64,000 bases of DNA. Source: Ianthella basta (lineage: Eukaryota > Porifera > Demospongiae > Verongiida > Ianthellidae). Below are positions 15,931 through 58,831 of this stretch, in pieces; the stretch's first letter is position 1, and each line of letters begins with the position of its first letter. The position numbers were made by a program, and so were the translations under genes. The notes below the pieces were generated by a model, which ran no database searches, was not told where the DNA came from, and was given only the letters and a program-made list of their open reading frames with translations. The DNA is taken from the NCBI GenBank assembly GCA_964019415.1, contig OZ025871.1, forward strand, positions 8,172,713 to 8,236,712, in the 5' to 3' direction.

Positions 15931-58831
<42,901 letters not shown>

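Follow-up and report, generated by a model that had tools for sequence, protein, structure and literature searches.

Within a stretch of 64,000 nucleotides from the sponge Ianthella basta (GCA_964019415.1, contig OZ025871.1, positions 8,172,713 to 8,236,712 of the forward strand; hereafter the window), a motif of the ribosome-skipping 2A type, DVEVNPGP, lies on an exon ahead of CARD and NACHT exons. We consider it probable that these exons form a polyprotein-like NLR gene, whose sequence predicts a membrane protein of ~315 residues, a separate CARD-NACHT protein and an unskipped fraction in which the two would stay tethered. The order and phases of these exons recur in diverged paralogues elsewhere in this genome. 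Of the exons measured in the near-identical copies on C4 the one with the 2A is the most constrained, and relatives of it are found in protein databases.

The motif is confirmed as a real feature, encoded at the end of a hydrophobic run as the original prediction had it: LLLILAG stands immediately N-terminal to its first residue, the mean hydropathy over residues 290-308 of the gene model is 2.32, and the short tract of long hydrophobic side chains that forms the upstream context of 2A sequences is present. A degenerate DNA pattern for DVExNPGP matches the window once, even with up to two mismatches allowed, against a mean of 0.01 in 100 shuffles. The exon that carries it is 118 nt long with AG/GT borders (preceded by ctcctcacag, followed by gtttgt), and by its sequence the chain is predicted to break between G315 and P316. 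In L069, L070 and L071, three other 2A loci of this genome, a donor lies 7 nt past the GP codons; the window, unlike these, has no GT at that point (22202-22229), and its next donor comes 28 nt after the GP codons with the phase unchanged.

Joined from 15934 to ~33236, nine exons give 1017 codons without a stop, with AG/GT at the internal borders and consistent splice phases (start phases 0-1-0-1-2-0-1-1-0 for exons 1-9); the 3′ border of the NACHT exon is approximate, and the joining is predicted splicing. An in-frame TAG stands 6 nt upstream of the exon 1 ATG, as it does before the ATG in L070 and L072. Hydropathy picks out four segments in the model (residues 46-64, 168-186, 213-231 and 290-308), the last directly adjoining D309-P316. 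Exon 8 is the sole phase-1 to phase-0 exon proposed between CARD and NACHT. Two positions of the original prediction had to be moved: the locus, thought to start at 19.4 kb, begins at 15934 in our model, and the CARD exon begins at 27375 and not at 27354. An acceptor at ~27352 was set aside in favour of the phase-1 acceptor at 27375, equivalents of which occur in L069, L070, L071 and L073.

The 2A motif is thus in phase with CARD-like and NACHT exons, a claim that the gene model, the CARD fold and the domain searches support. The NACHT of exon 9 matches PF05729 above the family cut-off, and exon 7, which has no Pfam match and is assigned by its fold, supplies the N-terminal death-fold effector domain of an NLR. 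No Death or Pfam-type CARD exon, as present in L070 and L072, was found between exon 7 and the NACHT exon with six queries. The four-segment membrane module matches no Pfam family at E 1. A membrane-rich N-terminal part followed by CARD, NACHT and leucine-rich repeats had been proposed for this gene; the membrane, CARD and NACHT parts stand, and the repeats are putative: an open frame looks repeat-like by eye, and searches of Pfam and PDB at E 10 gave no match for it. The spliced query, scored over residues 1-440, returned no protein at E 1 or better among 8000 candidates scored, and the NACHT exon has no relative among prokaryote genome contigs.

Searching NLR paralogues of the same genome for the motif, as had been suggested, gave a positive answer. 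The acceptors and phases of exons 5 and 6 are common to the window and to L069 (C2), L070 (C3), L071 (C7), L073 (C2) and L075 (C12), and the exon 3 acceptor to the window, L070, L073 and L075. We inspected the DNA downstream of the 2A in L069-L076 (stretches of 6-10 kb) and in the 3-kb loci L012, L015, L016 and L017; most contain CARD, Death or NACHT matches (Table 1), so that a 2A on an NLR is present in the window gene and in paralogues, and L016 and L017 match none of nine domain queries within their 3 kb. The association was also measured by position, from 155 2A places (100 listed by place of the 307 genome-wide pattern matches, with 63 and 2 from further searches, overlaps merged) and the best 70 of 150 CARD-exon matches. 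Among the best 55 of these, 48 have a 2A within 10 kb upstream on the same strand, one has it within 10 kb downstream and none has it on the opposite strand; among the next 15, none has an upstream 2A. The gap from 2A to CARD exon ranges from 0.55 to 8 kb across loci.

Copies of the window 2A exon occupy 30 near-identical places on C4 between 3.95 and 8.19 Mb, the window (L040) included, and the motif is kept in all 30. In these places exon 6 has heterozygosities of 0.047, 0.011 and 0.086 by codon position, lowest at position 2, and differs from the window at 0.067 mismatches per site, compared with 0.23 in intron 4 and 0.29 in intron 6. Over all pairs of the 30 places exon 6 has a ratio of nonsynonymous to synonymous substitution rates (dN/dS) of 0.22 and exon 5 one of 0.72; exon 4 gives 0.62 over 18 C4 rows. 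In comparisons between families, 10 pairs of exon 5 have values of 0.25 to 0.59. One C4 copy, L039 at 4.156 Mb, is identical to the window in the 2A-exon protein, and the two share 99.8% identity over 3.1 kb (window 20612-23726) although they lie ~4.04 Mb apart, which may mean that the segment was duplicated recently or may be an effect of the assembly.

With a profile of six 2A-exon open reading frames (ORFs) and no motif filter, 42 proteins reached E 1e-3 or better, 41 of which have the D(V/I)ExNPGP motif. In 33 distinct aligned segments the D, V, E, N, P and G are invariant, and so are the residues ahead of them at -6 and -5 (L), -2 (A) and -1 (G); the final P is present in 32, and at least six residues occur at x. 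Two of these proteins, P0146 and P0159, probably derive from species other than that of the window, because they have no close counterpart in its genome: the best long match of P0146 there is 45% identical and that of P0159 55% over 67 residues, with up to 76% identity over the short 2A exon alone. Of 23 contigs of 10 kb or longer with a 2A-exon match, 11 have a length that recurs among the contigs of the 120 listed of 420 NACHT matches, and from the equal length we infer that in these 11 cases the two matches share a contig.

The same genome carries 2A sequences of another type. The DVExNPGP pattern has 307 exact matches in its 209 Mb and a reversed control pattern has none; the first 30 loci that we read comprise 16 of the long interspersed nuclear element (LINE) type, 13 of the spliced-exon type and one, L021, that is neither. 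Twelve of the LINE-type calls were made by an endonuclease-like or PHD-like pattern and four by resemblance. All four downstream ORFs tested from LINE 2As (L006, L011, L014 and L018) match Exo_endo_phos and so belong to APE-type LINEs. The 13 spliced-type loci have a candidate donor 7 or 10 nt past the GP codons, which is phase 1 either way. By eye we count ~109 NLR-type 2A exons in the genome: 86 rows of the exon-6 search with E below 1e-3, and 23 places on C2 that we assigned to 'type II' from the spelling of their codons. On C2 of G000, minus-strand arrays at 1.10-2.16 Mb and 3.61-3.89 Mb mix two kinds of 2A exon, mostly ~20-25 kb apart and spelled ...GAGGCCAACCCTGGACC and ...GAAGCAAACCCTGGTCC.

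From the computed exon order, phases, linkage, conservation, CARD fold and NACHT match we infer the following course for the polyprotein-like gene, in which splicing, skipping, membrane topology and an immune function are all predicted. A single spliced mRNA would be translated from exon 1, giving as first product a ~315-residue protein with four hydrophobic segments. An early hydrophobic segment would bring the ribosome to the membrane, and the last such segment would still occupy the exit tunnel when the 2A acts. Once the NPG of the 2A is in place, the ribosome would release the chain made so far and leave the Gly-Pro bond unformed; translation would then resume at the proline, to make a separate protein that starts with Pro ~10 residues ahead of the CARD and continues into NACHT. 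Ribosomes that do not skip would make a fusion that holds the CARD-NACHT sensor at the membrane. The four segments and the basic N-terminus suggest that the membrane part would have its end on the cytosolic side, and the unskipped fusion would therefore hang the sensor on the cytosolic face. One gene would thus give a membrane partner, a free sensor and, probably as a minor product, a tethered form, and the 2A sequence would determine their proportions.

Several observations weigh against this reading. Past its CARD exon, L071 has a weak Roc/COR-like match in place of NACHT, and L074 matches none of the nine domain queries over the ~9 kb past its 2A. For seven of the 55 best CARD exons, none of the 155 2A places compared lies in the 10 kb upstream, a number that may be an overcount because only part of the genome's 2A places entered the comparison. 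Two of 18 exon-4 rows contain a stop, and one database relative has NPGS. For exon 3, where dN/dS is saturated against the window, two of the three unsaturated comparisons (L070 with L073 and with L075) give ~1.1 and the third (L073 with L075) 0.27; the higher value may reflect either relaxed or diversifying selection. Finally, 22 of 31 C4 rows (the 30 places plus the window row) have an in-frame ATG shortly upstream of exon 6, which would permit another start.

That ATG would fit an arrangement like that of sea urchins, in which the translation of some transcripts would begin shortly ahead of exon 6 and the hydrophobic run and 2A would form an N-terminal signal sequence; skipped off, it would leave a cytosolic NLR, and kept, an NLR in the secretory pathway, with exons 1-5 belonging to another isoform or gene. 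Such use is known in sea urchin (PMC4981915). In the C4 rows the ATG lies mostly 12 nt before exon 6 with no stop between, and intron 5 (22008-22111) shows 0.079 mismatches per site, nearly as low as the adjoining exons and unlike introns 4 and 6. The low value in intron 5 could be due to gene conversion or to an alternative start. However, the window copy lacks an ATG in the open frame immediately upstream of exon 6, intron 5 lengths where measured run from 94 to 111 and are not all equal modulo 3, and the phases of exons 3, 5 and 6 match in diverged paralogues; we regard this start as unlikely. It is improbable, too, that the motif no longer skips or hardly does so and that the gene makes a single membrane-tethered NLR, with the motif kept for another reason such as a part in the membrane anchor: transmembrane segments are reported in sponge NLRs (PMC12909245), but an anchor would not need every residue of the motif stretch except x to be invariant or nearly so in 33 distinct segments.

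Exons 1-6 and the CARD-NACHT part could also be two genes, the latter with its own start, in which case the 2A would never be co-translated with the sensor. Introns of up to 5 kb separate exon 6 from the CARD exon in the window, the wide range of 2A-CARD gaps fits such a division, and a start codon may lie on an exon that went unseen; the phase-1 donor of exon 6 nevertheless fits the phase-1 CARD acceptor in the window, L069, L070, L071 and L073, the model has no start codon ahead of the CARD, and the frame past the 2A would end after 25 codons if unspliced, which makes two genes very unlikely. Hardly any weight falls on the motif being a LINE fragment or a chance match. Its genome does hold 2A-bearing APE-type LINEs, but the four tested have an Exo_endo_phos ORF downstream; in the window no endonuclease or reverse-transcriptase ORF follows in frame directly past the 2A, as it does in L006, L011, L014 and L018. 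We rejected a recent LINE insertion on this ground and on those of a spliced exon with borders conserved in paralogues, and chance on those of the empty reversed control, the shuffle mean, and the constraint and conservation in the C4 places. A very old LINE origin of the 2A exon is possible.

Rfam identifies five hammerhead ribozymes of type I in intron 2 of the model, at 17487-18909. Three lie on the plus strand and two on the minus strand; within each set the spacing is 374 bases, and the two sets form an inverted pair of tandem arrays that is retrozyme-like.

Table 1. Exons and other features of the window, and matches downstream of the 2A motif in paralogous loci.
Feature	Position	Strand	Description
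Exon 1	15934..16213	+	start codon, basic N-terminus, hydrophobic segment 1; phase-1 donor common to L069, L070
Exon 2	16475..16569	+	placed by AG/GT and phase
Exon 3	19452..19686	+	hydrophobic segment 2; acceptor and length common to L070, L073, L075
Exon 4	19803..19911	+	hydrophobic segment 3
Exon 5	21869..22007	+	acceptor phase common to L069, L070, L071, L073, L075
Exon 6	22112..22229	+	hydrophobic segment 4 and 2A; phase-1 donor
2A motif DVEVNPGP	22178..22201	+	residues 309-316 of model
Exon 7	27375..27656	+	CARD (by fold); begins ~10 residues past 2A proline
Exon 8	28274..28341	+	putative short linker, least certain exon; placed by splice signals and phase
Exon 9	31512..33236	+	NACHT; PF05729 1.3e-15, NLRP3 in PDB 1.4e-10
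Open frame	34414..34872	+	LRR-like by eye; relative in L069; no Pfam or PDB match
L069, downstream of 2A			CARD exon, NACHT 1.7e-17
L070, downstream of 2A			two CARD-like exons, Death 1.4e-5, CARD 2.4e-5, NACHT 2.4e-21
L071, past 2A and CARD exons	367-2592	-	741-aa open frame, weak Roc and COR-B matches below cut-offs
L072, downstream of 2A			Death 1.5e-5, NACHT 3.2e-18
L073, downstream of 2A			CARD-like exon, NACHT 5.2e-20
L075, downstream of 2A			CARD-like and NACHT-like by tblastn
L076, downstream of 2A			CARD; no NACHT within inspected stretch
L012, downstream of 2A			CARD-like
L015, downstream of 2A			Death

The closest known system is SpNLR2A of Strongylocentrotus purpuratus, where, according to PMC4981915, 85 of 241 NLRs have a 2A-like motif at or near the N-terminus (26 aa); for one urchin 2A sequence skipping was estimated at ~80%, and a skipping-inactive form entered the secretory pathway. 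The two share a 2A-like motif after a hydrophobic run, NACHT-type sensors, an expanded NLR family and 2A LINEs in the same genome. The analogy to sea urchin that was first drawn for this gene therefore stands for a 2A on an NLR and fails for its position: the urchin motif is N-terminal, whereas in the window it is internal, at residues 309-316, behind a module of ~308 residues with four hydrophobic segments on exons 1-6, so that the upstream product would be a protein and not a signal peptide. With viral and LINE 2As the window shares D(V/I)ExNPGP, the hydrophobic upstream context and a place between two proteins as in polyproteins; it differs in that its motif stands on a spliced exon, in a host gene family that also has CARD and NACHT, and not in a virus or a LINE ORF. 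Other sponge NLRs, such as those of Dysidea avara (PMC12909245), likewise combine CARD or Death with NACHT, are greatly expanded and occasionally have transmembrane segments; the main text of that paper does not contain '2A-like', and in the window gene the membrane part would be set free as a protein of its own. A 2024 paper gives NLRs as the cellular case of 2A-like sequences (PMC11512398). In a literature search that left most subscription papers outside its reach, sea urchin NLRs were the only host genes found with a 2A, and no report was found of a 2A in sponge NLRs or of one lying internally, with a membrane module before it and an NLR after it. A 2A on NLRs is thus already known from sea urchin; the internal arrangement described here is new.

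If real, the arrangement means that a host uses a recoding peptide like those of viruses and LINEs, on a large scale, to obtain a pair of immune proteins from each gene. The membrane protein, whose module matches no Pfam family, would be a candidate partner or effector of these NLRs, and some predicted 'transmembrane NLRs' may be explained as proteins that are cytosolic in the cell. We give an even chance to a wider proposal, that the genes of a large host family each encode a cellular polyprotein, with the ratio of partner to sensor fixed by the 2A and an unskipped, tethered third form, and that this organisation is kept in more than one species. The membrane-embedded partner would then be an anchor, receptor or executioner, and in at least one paralogue, L071, the module would precede a Roc/COR-like part in place of NACHT. 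Sensor and membrane partner, encoded in one such gene, would therefore duplicate and diversify as one unit, and the family, if the proposal is true, would be an animal counterpart to a two-gene immune operon.
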